Below, piece by piece: positions 26,241-32,729 of a stretch of DNA of 33,739 bases (position 1 is its first letter; each line of letters starts with the position of its first letter). Origin of the DNA: Oscillospiraceae bacterium. GTDB lineage: Bacteria > Bacillota > Clostridia > Oscillospirales > Oscillospiraceae. The position numbers and the translations under genes are program-made. The notes below the pieces were generated by a model. That model was not told where the DNA came from. It did no database searches and saw nothing but the letters and a program-made list of their open reading frames with translations. Location of the stretch: assembly GCA_017958265.1 (NCBI GenBank), contig JAGDDB010000168.1, forward strand, positions 1-33,739. Direction: 5' to 3'.

Positions 26241-26756
26241 TTACAACAGCCCGAAAGCAAAATCAACCAGAAGCCAAAACCCCGCCGCCGCCGCGCCGCG
26301 GCTGAACAGCCCGAAAGCAAGCATGATCAGCACGGAAACGCAGTCGAGCACCGTCCCTGCCCTCTGCGATATCCGGCCCGAGAGCATTCTGCCGCCGTCC
26401 AGCTTGGAGTACGGCAGGAGGTTGAACAGGGACAGCGCAAGGCTCACCCTGCCCGTCTCTCCGCGCGCAAGCGCGGCAAAAAGCAGTCCCGCCGCCGGTC
26501 CGGCAGCGGCGGAAATGATCGGGCTGCCGTGACTGTCCGCATCGATGCGCAGTCCGTGCGCCTCCATGCGTATCCCCGTCGGCTCTCCCCCGGTCAGCAG
26601 CATGGCGAGCAGGTGTCCGGTCTCATGAGCCAGCACGGCCGCCGAGGCTGCGAAAAACGCTTTTTTTCCGGCAAGCACATAGGCTCCCGCAATAAAAACA
26701 AGAAAGCCTCCGCTGACGTCGATACGTATTTTTTTAAGTGAGTTTTGGTTTGACAT
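26241..26756 (-). CDS. Site-2 protease family (M50, SpoIVFB-like)
   Basis: An intramembrane zinc metalloprotease, 171 residues. It has the HETGH motif (His44, Glu45, His48) within the second hydrophobic segment and the partner motif FNLLPYSKLDGGR with Asp120, the third zinc ligand. Four to six membrane segments are visible. The size and lack of PDZ or CBS domains match compact SpoIVFB-like proteases; in Clostridia such a gene commonly precedes the TIGR03960 gene, and a sporulation role is possible but not shown. AAAGGAT precedes the ATG. The start codon overlaps the -35 box of the divergent promoter. Confidence 0.88.
   Translation of the reverse strand: MSNQNSLKKIRIDVSGGFLVFIAGAYVLAGKKAFFAASAAVLAHETGHLLAMLLTGGEPTGIRMEAHGLRIDADSHGSPIISAAAGPAAGLLFAALARGETGRVSLALSLFNLLPYSKLDGGRMLSGRISQRAGTVLDCVSVLIMLAFGLFSRGAAAAGFWLLVDFAFGLL
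26245..26320. repeat. 16-bp direct repeat, 60 bases apart, in the M50 gene
   Basis: AACAGCCCGAAAGCAA occurs at 26245-26260 and 26305-26320. The offset is a multiple of three, and the two copies encode similar hydrophobic segments (AFGLF and AFGLL) near the C-terminus. Confidence 0.8.
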
Positions 26757-26788
26757 AGTATCCTTTTATGCTATACTCTTTTAAAGAG
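26750..26788 (+). promoter_or_regulatory. Strong promoter for the xer-MBOAT genes with start-site palindrome
   Basis: TTGACA (26750-26755), a 16-base spacer and TATACT (26772-26777) with TGC just upstream form a near-consensus extended -10 promoter. A palindrome CTCTTTTAAAGAG (26776-26788) covers the expected start site, a position where a repressor would act. The leader to the recombinase ATG is about 45 bases with AAGGAG. Confidence 0.85.
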
Positions 26789-26828: not shown

Positions 26829-27842
26829 ATGGATTACCGCAGCGAGGCTCCCGAAATAATCCGCGATTTCCTCAACTATCACGAGGTCATCCGCGGGCAT
26901 TCGCAGAAGACCGTCGACGAGTATTATCTCGATCTGCGGACCTTCCTGCGTTTCCTGCTGCGCCGCCGCGGGATGGTCGACGCGAAAACGCCCTTCGACG
27001 AGACGGACATATCCGGCGTGGATCTGGATTTTCTCGCCGCGGTCGACCGCAGCGAAATATATGACTACATGAGCTTTCTCAGCCGCGACAGGGAAAGCGG
27101 CCACGGTCCGCGCGATAAGCGCAGCGGCCTTTCCGCCTCCAGCCGCGCCAGGAAGTTAGCGACGCTGCGTTCGCTTTTCAAGTATCTTACGGTCAAAACC
27201 GGCATGCTTGAAAAAAACCCTCTTGACGGCTTTGACTCTCCGCGTACCAAGCGCAGCCTGCCGAAGTATCTCAGTCTTGAAGAAAGCATCAGACTTCTGA
27301 GCAGCGTCGGCGGAAGAAACGCCGTGAGGGACCGGTGCATACTGACCGTTTTTCTCAACTGCGGCCTGCGTATCAGCGAGCTCGCCGGCCTGAACATGTC
27401 CGATTTCAGCGAGGATCATCTGCGGGTATTCGGCAAAGGCGGCAAGGAGCGCGTGGTATATCTCGACGGCGCCGCTCTCGCCTCCGTGGAAGAATATGCC
27501 GCCCTTCGCCGCGATATCGACGCCGAGTCTCCCGCCCTGTTCCTCTCGGAGCAGAAAAACAGGATCTCCCGCAGCACCGTCCACAGGCTCGTGAAAAACC
27601 ATCTCGGCGAGGCCGGGCTTGCCATGGAGGGCTATTCGTCTCACAAGCTCAGGCATACCGCCGCTACGCTGATGCTGAAAAACGGCGTGGATCTGCGCAC
27701 TCTTCAGGAGCTTTTGGGGCACGAGCATCTCAATACCACGGAAATTTACACTCACGTTGAAAACAGCGATCTGAGAACAGCGGCGCGGGCCAATCCTCTT
27801 TCGTCCTTCGACCCCGACGCGGATAAGGATCTGGATAAATAA
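26829..27842 (+). CDS. Tyrosine recombinase, XerC/XerD type
   Basis: A site-specific recombinase, probably for chromosome dimer resolution. The 337 residues have an N-terminal core-binding (SAM-like) domain and a catalytic domain with the complete set Arg181 (GLRISE), Lys206 (GKGGKER), His272 and Arg275 (HKLRH), His298 (LLGHEH) and nucleophile Tyr307 (IYTHV). It is about 35-40 residues longer than typical XerC/D because of charged insertions at about 47-75 and 87-104. AAGGAG lies nine bases before the ATG. No phage or integron genes adjoin, which favours a housekeeping Xer over an integrase; xerC versus xerD cannot be decided. Confidence 0.92.
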   Translation: MDYRSEAPEIIRDFLNYHEVIRGHSQKTVDEYYLDLRTFLRFLLRRRGMVDAKTPFDETDISGVDLDFLAAVDRSEIYDYMSFLSRDRESGHGPRDKRSGLSASSRARKLATLRSLFKYLTVKTGMLEKNPLDGFDSPRTKRSLPKYLSLEESIRLLSSVGGRNAVRDRCILTVFLNCGLRISELAGLNMSDFSEDHLRVFGKGGKERVVYLDGAALASVEEYAALRRDIDAESPALFLSEQKNRISRSTVHRLVKNHLGEAGLAMEGYSSHKLRHTAATLMLKNGVDLRTLQELLGHEHLNTTEIYTHVENSDLRTAARANPLSSFDPDADKDLDK

Positions 27843-29230
27843 TGGTTTTTTCCGGTTTGCTTTTCATATTCATATACCTGCCTGTCACACTGGCCGTATA
27901 CTACCTCTCGCCCCCGAAATGGAGAAACGCCTGGCTCTTTGCCGCCAATCTGATCTTCTACGGCTGGGGCGAGCCGGTATATGTGCTGCTTATGGTCTTT
28001 TCCGTAACGCTCAACTATGTTTCCGGTCTGCTGGTCGATGCCCGCCGCGACAGGGGCAAATTGATAATCGCCGTCAATACCGCCGTCAACCTGGCGCTGC
28101 TGATATTCTTCAAATACTATGATTTTCTTGCCGAAAATCTTTCCGCGATACCGTTTTTGTCCTTCATGCATCCTCTCGGCATCACTCTGCCGATAGGCAT
28201 TTCCTTCTACACCTTCCAGACCATGTCCTATCCCATAGACGTATACCGGGGCGACGCGGAGGTGCAGCGCAGTTATATCAGCTTCGGCACCTTTGTTTCG
28301 CTTTTTCCCCAGCTGATCGCCGGACCTATCATACGCTACAAGAGCATCGCCTCGCAGCTGACCGAGCGCAGCGTGGATGTGCGGCGATTTTCCGCCGGAG
28401 TGACCCGCTTTTGCGCCGGACTGGCCAAAAAGGTGCTTCTTGCCAACAATATAGGCGCGCTGTGGGATGTATACGCCTCGCGCGACCCTTCTTCTCTGTC
28501 CGCCGCCGACGCCTGGCTGGGCGCCGTCGCCTTCAGCTTTCAGATCTACTTTGATTTTTCAGGTTATTCCGATATGGCCATAGGCCTGGGACATATGCTC
28601 GGCTTTGAGTTCTGCGAAAACTTCGATTATCCCTATATCTCCCGCAGCATTACGGAATTCTGGCGCCGCTGGCATATCTCCCTCGGCACATGGTTCCGCG
28701 ATTATGTCTACATCCCCCTCGGCGGCAACCGCAGAGGCCTCGCCCGTCAGCTCCTGAACATATGCATAGTATGGGCGCTCACCGGCATATGGCACGGCGC
28801 GAGCTGGAATTTCCTTTTGTGGGGCGTGTATTACGCCCTGCTCCTGATGCTCGAAAAGCTGTTCCTGCTCAAAGCGCTCAAGCGCGCCCCGGCGGCCGTC
28901 GGTCACATCTATTCGCTTCTGCTGGTGGTCCTGGGCTGGGTGCTTTTCTCCGTAGAGGATATCGGAGGCTGCTTCCGCTACATTGCCGCGATGTTCGGCG
29001 CGGGCGGCGCGCTCGTCTCCGGAAGTGCGCTGTATTATCTCCGCTCCTTCGCGCCGACGCTGGCCGTTCTTGTCCTGGCGTCCACTCCTCTGCCCAAAAA
29101 GCTCTATTCCCGCCTTCCGGACAAAGCCGTTTCGGTCCTTACGCCAGTACTGACCGCGGCTGCGCTGCTGCTTTCCACGGCGTATCTGACGGACAGCACA
29201 TACAATCCCTTCCTTTACTTCAGATTTTAG
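27842..29230 (+). CDS. MBOAT-family O-acyltransferase (AlgI/PatA-like)
   Basis: A polytopic membrane acyltransferase that moves acyl (usually acetyl) groups across the membrane onto an extracellular polymer. The 462 residues have about eleven hydrophobic segments and the family landmarks GYSDMAIGLG, FWRRWHISLGTWFRDYVYIP and LTGIWHGASWNFLLWG, with the catalytic His318. It starts at the last base of the recombinase stop (TAATG), so it is translationally coupled. The next gene is the usual DHHW partner. The acceptor is unknown; exopolysaccharide or wall polymer are likely choices. Confidence 0.94.
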   Translation: MVFSGLLFIFIYLPVTLAVYYLSPPKWRNAWLFAANLIFYGWGEPVYVLLMVFSVTLNYVSGLLVDARRDRGKLIIAVNTAVNLALLIFFKYYDFLAENLSAIPFLSFMHPLGITLPIGISFYTFQTMSYPIDVYRGDAEVQRSYISFGTFVSLFPQLIAGPIIRYKSIASQLTERSVDVRRFSAGVTRFCAGLAKKVLLANNIGALWDVYASRDPSSLSAADAWLGAVAFSFQIYFDFSGYSDMAIGLGHMLGFEFCENFDYPYISRSITEFWRRWHISLGTWFRDYVYIPLGGNRRGLARQLLNICIVWALTGIWHGASWNFLLWGVYYALLLMLEKLFLLKALKRAPAAVGHIYSLLLVVLGWVLFSVEDIGGCFRYIAAMFGAGGALVSGSALYYLRSFAPTLAVLVLASTPLPKKLYSRLPDKAVSVLTPVLTAAALLLSTAYLTDSTYNPFLYFRF

Positions 29231-29239
29231 GAGCCGAAA

Positions 29240-30340
29240 ATGAAAAAGACAGGAAGCATTATCAATACCGTCTGCTTTGCTCTTTTCATCGCCGTGTTCG
29301 CGGCGCTGCTCGTCCTTTCTCCGGATAAGGATATCTCCCCTCAGGAAAACCGCGTCCTCGCCCGGCTGCCGGCCTTCAGCTTTTCCGAGCTGTTCTCCGG
29401 CCGCTTCATGAAGGATTTCGAAAGCTGGATCACGGATCAGTTTCCTTTTCGGGACAGCTGGATAAGCCTTAAGTCCCGTGCCGAGCGTCTTTCCGGCAAG
29501 ACCGAGAACAACAACGTCTTCTTTGCCTCCGACGACACTCTCATTACCCGTTTTCCCGCTCCCGACATGTCCGTGGTCGACGCCAACACCGCGGCGGTCA
29601 ATGCTTTGGGCCAATACGCCGACGTATATCTTTCCCTTATCCCCACCGCCGCCGAGATATGGTCCGACCGGCTCCCCGCTCACGCCGACACGGCCGATCA
29701 GCGCGCGCTCATAGAGTATATTTATCACGGCTGCGGCGTGAATACCGTCGATACCTGCTCCGCTCTGTACGCCCACCGCGGCGAATACATCTATTACCGA
29801 ACCGACCATCATTGGACAACGCTCGGAGCATATTACGGCTATACGGCGCTCTGCGCCGCGATGGGGCTTGAGCCCGTTGACGGCTATGTGCCGCAGACGG
29901 TCACCGACGGCTTTTACGGCACGGCCTATTCTTCCTCCGGCGTTCGCTGGGTGGAGCCCGACGAAATAGACATATATGTTCCCGCGGAGGGTGTGCGCGT
30001 TACCGACTATAACGGCCGGGAGCACGAGGGCTCGGTCTATGATATGAGCAAACTTGAGGGCAAAGATAAATACGCGGTGTTTTTCGGCGGAAACACGCCG
30101 CGCATGATCATCGATACGGGCCGCGAGGGCGGCAGTCTTCTGCTCCTGCGGGACTCCTACTCCGACTGCGAGCTGCCTTTCCTGTTTGCCCATTTTTCCC
30201 GCATCCACGTACTCGACCTGCGCTATTACCGTATGAGCGTAAAGGATTATATTGCCGACAACGGCATAGACGCCGTCCTTGTGAACTACGGTCTGAGCAA
30301 TTTCTGCACCGATCTGTCCCCCGCCCTCATGGGCATATAG
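29240..30340 (+). CDS. DHHW-family (AlgJ/AlgX-like) exported protein
   Basis: Partner of MBOAT acyltransferases that transfers the acyl group to the final acceptor outside the cell. The 366-residue protein has an N-terminal signal anchor (about 8-27), the motif NRVLARLPAFS, the name-giving DHHW (189-192, TDHHWTTLGAYYGY) and a later RDSYSD with the candidate nucleophile Ser, consistent with an SGNH-like fold. AGGAG precedes the ATG, nine bases after the MBOAT gene. Confidence 0.92.
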   Translation: MKKTGSIINTVCFALFIAVFAALLVLSPDKDISPQENRVLARLPAFSFSELFSGRFMKDFESWITDQFPFRDSWISLKSRAERLSGKTENNNVFFASDDTLITRFPAPDMSVVDANTAAVNALGQYADVYLSLIPTAAEIWSDRLPAHADTADQRALIEYIYHGCGVNTVDTCSALYAHRGEYIYYRTDHHWTTLGAYYGYTALCAAMGLEPVDGYVPQTVTDGFYGTAYSSSGVRWVEPDEIDIYVPAEGVRVTDYNGREHEGSVYDMSKLEGKDKYAVFFGGNTPRMIIDTGREGGSLLLLRDSYSDCELPFLFAHFSRIHVLDLRYYRMSVKDYIADNGIDAVLVNYGLSNFCTDLSPALMGI

Positions 30341-30437
30341 GCAAGCGCATCCCCGTCACTGCCTGCCGGCGTCGGATCTTTACGGTGCCTTTCTTTCGCG
30401 GCACGGCCGCGGCAATCAAACCACGGAGGGTCTCACC

Positions 30438-31868
30438 ATGACAAAAAACATGAAAAAAACCGTCATTTTCCTCGCTGCGGAGCTGATTTTCCTGTGCCTT
30501 TCGCTTCCGGCGAAATTTCCTCTGCTTTTGAGGCTGATTTTTGCCGCCGCCTCGTTTGCATCCCCTCTCCCGATGCTGATGCCCGGGATGATCGAAGATA
30601 TCAAGCGCAAAGCGGTCACATTCCGTCTGCTCATACCCGCCGCGCTGCTTATCACGCTCTGCACCGGCGCGTATATCGCCGCGGAGGTCGGCATGCTGCT
30701 GTACCGCGCCGCGACCCTTCTGCTGCCCTTCCGCTCGGACCGCTCCCGCGCCGTAGCGGAAAACCGGCTTGAAATGTCCGGGCTTTCCGAGCACTCCGCC
30801 GTATTCGATCCCGTGCCGGACGTGAGAGGCCGCTTATTCGTCTTTTTACGCGACTACCTTACTTATATCATCCTCGCGGCCGCGCTGATAACCGGCGTAC
30901 TTACCGCGCTTCTTTCGCCGCGCGGGATCGTCGAAGGCATAAGACGCGCCTGCGTGCTCATCGCCGTTTCCGGCACCGCGCCGCTTTTCGCCGCCTTCCC
31001 CGCGGCCGATCTTTCCGCCGCCGCCGCCGCGGCGGAAAACAATACGGTATTCGCTTCCGGCGCCATTCCTGCCATGCTTGACGTCAACTGCGTATACATG
31101 TCCGCCTCCGAAAGCAAACGCTTCGGCAATGCTCAGGCTGTCAGCGCGAACTCCGATTTCATAAAGCCCGACGGGCTCATCATGCTTGCCGCCACGGCGC
31201 AAGCCGCGGCGGGCGGACCGATGGCGGCCGTTCTGAGCGGGCTTTGCCCCGGCGAGATCGACGTTTCCGCCGTGTCGTCATTCAACGATCTGCCCGGCTA
31301 CGGCGTGATAGCCTCCATGCGGGATATCACGGTCCTTGCCGGAAGCGCGGAGCTCATGCGGCAGAGCGGACTGCCCGTGATAGGTTTCCGCGACGTAGAG
31401 AACATAGTACATGTGGCGGTAAACGGCAGATACGCGGGCTTTATAATGCTTGACGGCGACGAGCTGACCGAAAGCGAATTCCGCAGCGAGCTCAGCGGCA
31501 TGGGCATACGCGCTCTCAGCTCATTGAATCAGCGCGGCAAGAATGACGTAACGCTTATTGCCTCTTCCGACGGCAGTGACCGCGGCGAGCTGTTTGACGC
31601 CGACGTCTACGCGGCCCTCGGCGCCCGCGGCGACGAGGCGGGGGTATATTCGGCCATGGGCGGCTTTGAGGCTCTGCGGCGGATATTCCGGCTGAGCTAT
31701 AACGCGCTGAGCGTCCGCACCGGCACGTTCATGATCTCCGCCTGTCTCAAGCTGCTGCTCATACTCACGGCGATATTCGGCTTCGTTCCCGTATGGCTCG
31801 CCGTGGCCGTCGAGGCAGTCGGAGTGTACGTGGGATTGATGTTCGCCCTCCGCGCATTGGACATATAG
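30438..31868 (+). CDS. Degenerate P1B-type ATPase-like membrane protein
   Basis: A 476-residue intact reading frame with GGAGGG before the ATG. Segments align by eye with CadA/ZntA-type metal ATPases: a membrane region ending EVGMLLYRAATLL, then DRSRAVAEN; a later pair with VSGTAPLFAAFP where the family has the CPC helix; a domain with LPGYGVIASMRDITVLAGSAELM; VHVAVNGRYAGFIMLDG; DADVYAALGARGDEA; and a final membrane pair. All catalytic residues are lost: CPC is Gly-Thr-Ala (179-181), DKTGT is Ser-Ala-Ser-Glu-Ser (222-226), the SEHP His is Gly260, the GDGxNDxP loop is missing, and the actuator domain is absent. It cannot pump by the known mechanism. Function unknown. It lies 97 bases after the DHHW gene. 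Confidence 0.8.
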   Translation: MTKNMKKTVIFLAAELIFLCLSLPAKFPLLLRLIFAAASFASPLPMLMPGMIEDIKRKAVTFRLLIPAALLITLCTGAYIAAEVGMLLYRAATLLLPFRSDRSRAVAENRLEMSGLSEHSAVFDPVPDVRGRLFVFLRDYLTYIILAAALITGVLTALLSPRGIVEGIRRACVLIAVSGTAPLFAAFPAADLSAAAAAAENNTVFASGAIPAMLDVNCVYMSASESKRFGNAQAVSANSDFIKPDGLIMLAATAQAAAGGPMAAVLSGLCPGEIDVSAVSSFNDLPGYGVIASMRDITVLAGSAELMRQSGLPVIGFRDVENIVHVAVNGRYAGFIMLDGDELTESEFRSELSGMGIRALSSLNQRGKNDVTLIASSDGSDRGELFDADVYAALGARGDEAGVYSAMGGFEALRRIFRLSYNALSVRTGTFMISACLKLLLILTAIFGFVPVWLAVAVEAVGVYVGLMFALRALDI

Positions 31869-31891
31869 GACAGGGGACGGTTCCTTGTCTT
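31868..31891 (+). repeat. Left terminal inverted repeat of the RAYT element
   Basis: 24 bases beginning GGACAGGGGACGGTTCC, perfectly inverted at 32701-32724. The first base is also the last base of the ATPase-like gene's TAG stop, and the last base is the first of the transposase stop codon. Confidence 0.95.
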
Positions 31892-32655
31892 CATCTGTTT
31901 TCGCGCAGCCATTTTTCGATGATACCCTTTGATACGCCGGTCACACGCACGAGCTGCCTAATAGAAGCCCCCTTTTCATGCGCTTTTACAATTCCTTTTT
32001 CCTGTTTTTTCCGGGGCAGAGAAAGGAACTCGGCGATATTGTCCACATGGCCGTACTTATGCACGAGTGCAGCGGCGGCTTCTTCCGTGATGGGGTGACG
32101 TATCGGTTCAGTTATATCCATACACTCGTCGGCGCAGCGCTTCGCATGATAAGCAAAGAATTCTTCCCGCCCGATCCATTCCAAAGGCATTTCTATATCC
32201 GTAAGGTTTCCCGTATGATCGTCTTCGTAATCCGAAAAGCTGCTGTATTCATAATGCAGCTCCTTACTGAAGCCGCCTTTAACGGGGTTATAATGGATAT
32301 ACCGGATCACTGTTTTTAAATAGACGTCATCCTCCACAGGTTCGCTTTTGAAGCGATCCTGAAACAGGTGTCCAACGCGCTCGTAACGCGAATTGTACCA
32401 ATAAACGTAATTGCTGCCTATCCGTTTCATGATGATATCCAGCGGATCATTTTCAACCTTCAGCAGCAGATGAACGTGGTTATTCATTAAACAATATGCG
32501 TACAGTTGGAATCCGCTTTTCTCTTTGCTGACGGAAAGGATCTTCAAAAACTTCTTTTTGTCGAGATCATCCTCAAAAATATTTTGTTTCCCGATCCCAC
32601 GCAGCATCACATGATAAATCCCGGTGACGCTTGGCCGTCTGGCTGTTCTGGGCAT
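31891..32655 (-). CDS. REP-associated (Y1/HUH) transposase
   Basis: A 254-residue protein of the transposase IS200-like (Y1_Tnp) family. It has the start PRTARRPSVTGIYHVMLRG, the HUH metal site in YCLMNNHVHLLLK, GHLFQDRFKSEPVEDDVYL, and YIHYNPVKGGF, where the catalytic Tyr is expected. The extra C-terminal part ends in a helix-turn-helix-like stretch (IRQLVRVTGVSKGIIEKWL), as in RAYT proteins. I chose the ATG at 32653-32655 with GAGGTG six bases upstream; a GTG three codons earlier overlaps that site. Codon use is less GC-rich than that of its neighbours, consistent with transfer. The gene appears intact. Confidence 0.9.
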   Translation of the reverse strand: MPRTARRPSVTGIYHVMLRGIGKQNIFEDDLDKKKFLKILSVSKEKSGFQLYAYCLMNNHVHLLLKVENDPLDIIMKRIGSNYVYWYNSRYERVGHLFQDRFKSEPVEDDVYLKTVIRYIHYNPVKGGFSKELHYEYSSFSDYEDDHTGNLTDIEMPLEWIGREEFFAYHAKRCADECMDITEPIRHPITEEAAAALVHKYGHVDNIAEFLSLPRKKQEKGIVKAHEKGASIRQLVRVTGVSKGIIEKWLRENR

Positions 32656-32660
32656 AATAA

Positions 32661-32690
32661 TCACCTCGAGGAAATCATACCTCGAGGTGA
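32661..32690 (-). promoter_or_regulatory. Hairpin that hides the transposase ribosome binding site
   Basis: Perfect 10-bp arms TCACCTCGAG and CTCGAGGTGA with a 10-base loop. The arm nearest the gene contains GAGGTGA, the transposase ribosome binding site, which would be paired in the mRNA. Confidence 0.75.
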
Positions 32691-32700
32691 AACATATGTC

Positions 32701-32724
32701 AAGACAAGGAACCGTCCCCTGTCC
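32701..32724 (-). repeat. Right terminal inverted repeat of the RAYT element
   Basis: Exact reverse complement of 31868-31891. It is followed by TTTTAAAA and the tuf terminator stem. Confidence 0.95.
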
Positions 32725-32729
32725 TTTTA

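Follow-up and report, generated by a model that had tools for sequence, protein, structure and literature searches.

Descendants of P1B-2 metal pumps without an actuator domain or catalytic motifs, conserved in one Clostridia family

Organization of the locus

The window analyzed here is a stretch of 33,739 nucleotides from an Oscillospiraceae bacterium (GenBank assembly GCA_017958265.1, contig JAGDDB010000168.1; contig C140 of genome G000 in our set), whose assembly totals 2.04 Mb and is 76% complete; like it, all family members described below come from assembled genomes. Four rightwards-transcribed genes lie in its right part, the last of which, here called a pseudo-pump, is our subject. 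The names of the other three are our own reading of the window sequences, and we take them to be a tyrosine recombinase, an acyltransferase and its DHHW/AlgX-like partner. The features are:

26750–26777, + strand: strong promoter-like site TTGACA-16-TATACT (11/12) before xerC, a consensus match only
26829–27842, + strand: xerC/D-like tyrosine recombinase gene, presumed operon head (ORF; name from our reading of the sequence)
27842–29230, + strand: AlgI-like MBOAT acyltransferase gene (ORF; name from our reading of the sequence)
29240–30340, + strand: DHHW/AlgX-like gene, directly upstream of the pseudo-pump (ORF; name from our reading of the sequence)
30425–30429, + strand: GGAGG ribosome-binding site of the pseudo-pump gene
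30438–31868, + strand: pseudo-P1B-2 ATPase gene, 476 aa (ORF and homology evidence)
30738–30848, + strand: remnant at the place of the actuator domain (TGES), residues 101–137 (alignment to ZntA)
30972–30980, + strand: CPC metal site (M4), replaced by Gly179-Thr180-Ala181 (alignment with active relatives)
31101–31115, + strand: DKTGT phosphorylation motif, replaced by Ser222-Ala-Ser-Glu-Ser (alignment with active relatives)
31158–31442, + strand: N-domain remnant, residues 241–335, where conservation within the window subgroup is highest
31698–31865, + strand: M5–M6 membrane hairpin, residues 421–476, with K438, W453 and E459 aligned to ZntA

The pseudo-pump reading frame begins with ATG, ends with the stop codon at 31866–31868 and has no internal stops; the intact 476-codon gene reported in an earlier sequence-only reading was recovered at the same coordinates. 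A leftwards-transcribed REP-type transposase gene (31891–32664; Y1-like by eye) lies inside an element at 31867–32725 and is flanked by perfect 25-nt inverted repeats, the left arm of which starts within the pseudo-pump stop codon. It looks as if this element inserted at the 3' end of the pseudo-pump gene and replaced its last codons, the protein ending in LDI here and in LDADC in G001, a genome of the same genus.

Lost motifs and retained framework

The pseudo-pump lacks about 84 actuator residues (equivalent to ZntA 245–328), for which the profile alignments offer no counterpart, and its P domain is shortened relative to P1B-2 pumps, with TGD deleted and GDGIND reading SDG-SD. The phosphorylatable Asp of DKTGT is absent, with S222 in its place, and the HP histidine is G260; in the N domain the ATP-site Glu and His, placed by ATP7B numbering, are Q255 and G260. 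The sequence-only reading had listed Ser222, Gly-Thr-Ala, Gly260 and the missing GDGxNDxP loop, and each is correct against the active relatives; it had also described the whole actuator domain as gone, as the profile alignment that skips ZntA 245–328 confirms. Retained in the window protein are the GxG loop of the N domain (G287, G289) together with G302, the M5 Lys of the PIB-2 signature (K438, equivalent to ZntA K693) and W453 (ZntA W708); the M6 Asp of that signature, ZntA D714, is E459, thus acidic, but Glu rather than Asp. With the actuator, the phosphorylated Asp, the CPC site, the His of the ATP site and the Mg/hinge motifs all lost, no motif known today would let the protein run the E1/E2 phosphoenzyme cycle.

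Relationship to P1B-2 ATPases

When seven orthologues and 14 active P1B pumps are each made into a profile, the two profiles align over their full length (hhalign, 482 columns, E = 9.1e-39), which bears out the likeness to P-type ATPases first proposed from the sequence. The seven are the close set of window-type proteins, from G000, G001, G008, G012, G200, G250 and G289. Searches with the single window sequence are fainter: NCBIfam TIGR01525 (heavy-metal P-type ATPase) is matched at E = 7.7e-8, far below the curated cut-off, a Pfam search gave no match, and a PDB sequence search gave chance matches only. A profile of 24 actuator-less relatives compared with ZntA (4UMV) covers MA–M2 and M3 to the C-terminus; an AlphaFold2 model built from two sequences has a pLDDT of 33.

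The pseudo-pump shares with P1B-2 ATPases (ZntA, CadA; PDB 4UMV) the order of membrane helices, the K693, D714 and W708 positions and the N-domain glycine loop, and likewise has ArsR-linked relatives, but it differs from them in lacking the actuator domain, the phosphorylation Asp, CPC, HP, TGD and GDGxND. A membrane protein unrelated to P-type ATPases, similar by chance, would fit the absence of a Pfam match; we reject this reading and give it a negligible probability, given the full-length hhalign alignment and the graded intermediates and synteny with active pumps described below. These comparisons show the gene, as judged from homology, to be a descendant of an ArsR-linked P1B-2 pump (ZntA/CadA-like, Zn/Cd/Pb-type).

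Distribution, intermediates and invariant residues

At least 34 pseudo-pumps are present in at least 15 genera of one Clostridia family, and both figures are minima, as inspection was limited to the best matches. The catalytic motifs are lost in 34/34 and intact in the active set. The window subgroup comprises proteins of 476–490 aa. Intermediates include proteins of 658–839 aa in which the actuator region is kept and the motifs are broken (L089–L092, L107), and actuator-less proteins that retain CPC and DK (L066, L069, L071, L074, L075); CPC is retained in the pseudo-pumps L066, L068–L071, L074, L075 and L105. An order-wide profile search returned mainly active pumps, with no full-length actuator-less match outside the family among the matches listed.

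Several members have features of their own. Genome G029 carries two actuator-less pseudo-pumps (L066:1103–2821 on C23 and L069:3785–5491 on C69), each of which adjoins its own fructose-bisphosphate aldolase gene. The 839-aa L092:4429–6945 (G104:C374) has a long, acidic, low-complexity C-terminal extension. L071:6775–8508, L074:6991–8691 and L075:1033–2766 retain, with CPC, a His/Cys-rich N-terminus (HGHDCTCD..CMEEHHHEHHG) and could, on these residues, still bind metal; next to them lie paired genes for a histidine kinase and a response regulator.

Just four positions, G334, K438, G448 and W453, are identical across the 34 pseudo-pumps. The site of ZntA D714 is D in 28 and E in six, and the equivalent of ZntA E202 is kept in 23 of the 34 and lost in the window subgroup. 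In ZntA, K693 and D714 are a built-in counterion pair that forms a bridge in the E2.Pi state, and E202 is an exit-path residue (PMC8880997, PMC6305203). An invariant K438, an acidic D714 site in 34/34, the CPC of several other pseudo-pumps and the widely kept E202 would fit a carrier or pathway that passes metal or protons passively, independent of ATP, by way of the M5–M6 Lys-Asp/Glu pair; we consider such a function improbable, as the window subgroup lacks both the Cys residues and the E202 equivalent and an ungated pore would be costly. The same losses weaken, for the window subgroup, the metal sensor raised in the sequence-only reading, if a classical sensor is meant, although the K693/D714 pair is kept. 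Retention of the Lys-Asp/Glu pair may serve only the folding of M5–M6.

Phylogeny

In a tree of 73 proteins (IQ-TREE, sparsely filled columns removed), which is read with caution on account of long branches, the pseudo-pumps form two clades: clade I with 14 members, including the window protein, and clade II with 20, beside the active L093 and L015. A tree constrained to hold all pseudo-pumps together is weakly rejected (AU p = 0.034), so a single origin of the pseudo-pumps is not firmly excluded. Forcing all actuator-less proteins into one clade is strongly rejected (AU p = 1.6e-5), and the actuator label must change four or more times along the tree; a single loss of the actuator is rejected.

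Gene order

The order xerC-AlgI-DHHW-pseudo-pump is common to the seven orthologous loci, where contigs reach, which answers the check for conserved neighbours suggested in the sequence-only reading, and 11 of the 14 clade I pseudo-pumps lie on the same strand downstream of AlgI-DHHW. In G078 the order is pfp-fba-arsR-P1B-DHHW-AlgI-xerC-radA, and the pump there (L093) is of active type, with TGES, CPC, DKTGT and GDGIND intact; G205 (L094) has an ArsR-linked active pump in a setting similar to that of G078. Most clade II pseudo-pumps have the fba-xerC-radA setting, and the L090 and L107 pseudo-pumps also retain an adjoining DHHW-AlgI pair. The fba locus is without a P1B gene in five clade I genomes (G008, G012, G095, G083 and G104) and in G000. 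Active relatives thus occupy the same chromosomal setting, and the transition from active to dead can therefore be read in the synteny. As AlgI-DHHW also adjoins the active L093, the AlgI-DHHW neighbourhood is partly inherited. For the earlier suggestion of a scaffold for the adjacent acyltransferase, the link in gene order across clade I stands, but it is tempered by the presence of AlgI-DHHW beside that active pump too.

The arsR gene adjoins several active pumps and two 513-aa pseudo-pumps (L068, L079), and it is not adjacent to most pseudo-pumps in the neighbourhoods compared, so that metal-linked regulation seems to have been lost. This loss counts against the pseudo-pump being an inactive paralogue that controls one of the cell's working P-type metal pumps, by pairing with it or by titrating its substrate or chaperone, as does the usual view of P1B pumps as monomers. 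Potential targets are present: the window genome has CopA-type pumps and part of a P1B-2 pump, cut short by a contig end, in which an actuator region is present, and separate P1B matches of 640–870 codons are found in G001, G008 and G012. The role would also suit what the pseudo-pump retains, namely membrane hairpins and the N domain. We regard this role as possible but unlikely.

Selection

Three independent species pairs of the window subgroup give pseudo-pump dN/dS values (Nei-Gojobori) of 0.16 (G000/G001), 0.16 (G012/G200) and 0.29 (G289/G250), with a third-position excess, no stops and no internal indels. By this measure, which the sequence-only reading had suggested as a check, the gene is under purifying selection in several genera. 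In the same pairs, where the genes are present, values are 0.09–0.10 for AlgI and 0.11–0.25 for DHHW. Pooled by segment, all seven segments are constrained (0.11–0.29). Of all parts, the N domain is conserved least in active pumps (mean identity 0.45) and most in the window subgroup (mean identity 0.40).

A decaying pseudogene that is intact by luck would account for the fast evolution, with dN/dS above that of the neighbouring AlgI, and for an identity between genera of only 30%. It sits poorly with dN/dS well under 1 in three pairs whose genes have neither stops nor internal indels, and with 34 proteins that share the same losses and the same retained residues; we reject decay as very improbable. 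The earlier description of the gene as a pseudo-pump that is conserved and not in decay agrees with the selection data, with full-length orthologues bearing the same losses in other genera, with the synteny and with the tree.

Discussion

We lean towards the pseudo-pump being a membrane protein that does not pump and has been put to a new use, as a partner that binds or regulates another protein; we infer this partner role from gene order and from which parts are conserved. The protein would probably be held in one conformation: the M5–M6 Lys-Asp/Glu pair that it keeps is the one that in ZntA forms the salt bridge of the closed form, E2.Pi, and it has lost the actuator, which drives the cycle. 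The partner role would act through what remains of the N domain, which has become the most strongly constrained region. In the window clade the first candidate partner would be the cell-surface O-acylation machine encoded by AlgI-DHHW, because the gene directly follows that pair there and no P1B gene occupies the fba locus. A single partner shared by all pseudo-pumps is not established, since clade II genes lie beside fba/xerC and the active L093 lies beside DHHW-AlgI. We know of no P-type ATPase-like subunit in AlgI-AlgX/DHHW O-acyltransferase operons, whose genes are the neighbours of the pseudo-pump in the window clade.

In the textbook view of P-type ATPases, pumping needs every one of the cytoplasmic domains. 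No description of a P-type ATPase pseudoenzyme was found in the open-licence papers searched. As in pseudoenzymes in general (reviewed in PMC10211241), catalytic residues are lost while fold family and selection are kept; the pseudo-pumps differ in that a whole domain has been lost repeatedly. We put forward, with evenly balanced confidence, that these proteins of one Clostridia family form a class of P-type ATPase pseudoenzymes not described before, in which pump genes next to conserved housekeeping genes would have become non-pumping at least twice, with several independent actuator deletions, and would have taken on a new regulatory or scaffold role.

The repeated loss of the actuator and of catalytic residues under selection suggests another use for the scaffold, and with active and dead forms in matching neighbourhoods, and intermediates between them, the conversion is directly testable. 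Pseudo-pump genes may carry a metal-pump annotation, and counts of metal-resistance genes could be inflated as a result.
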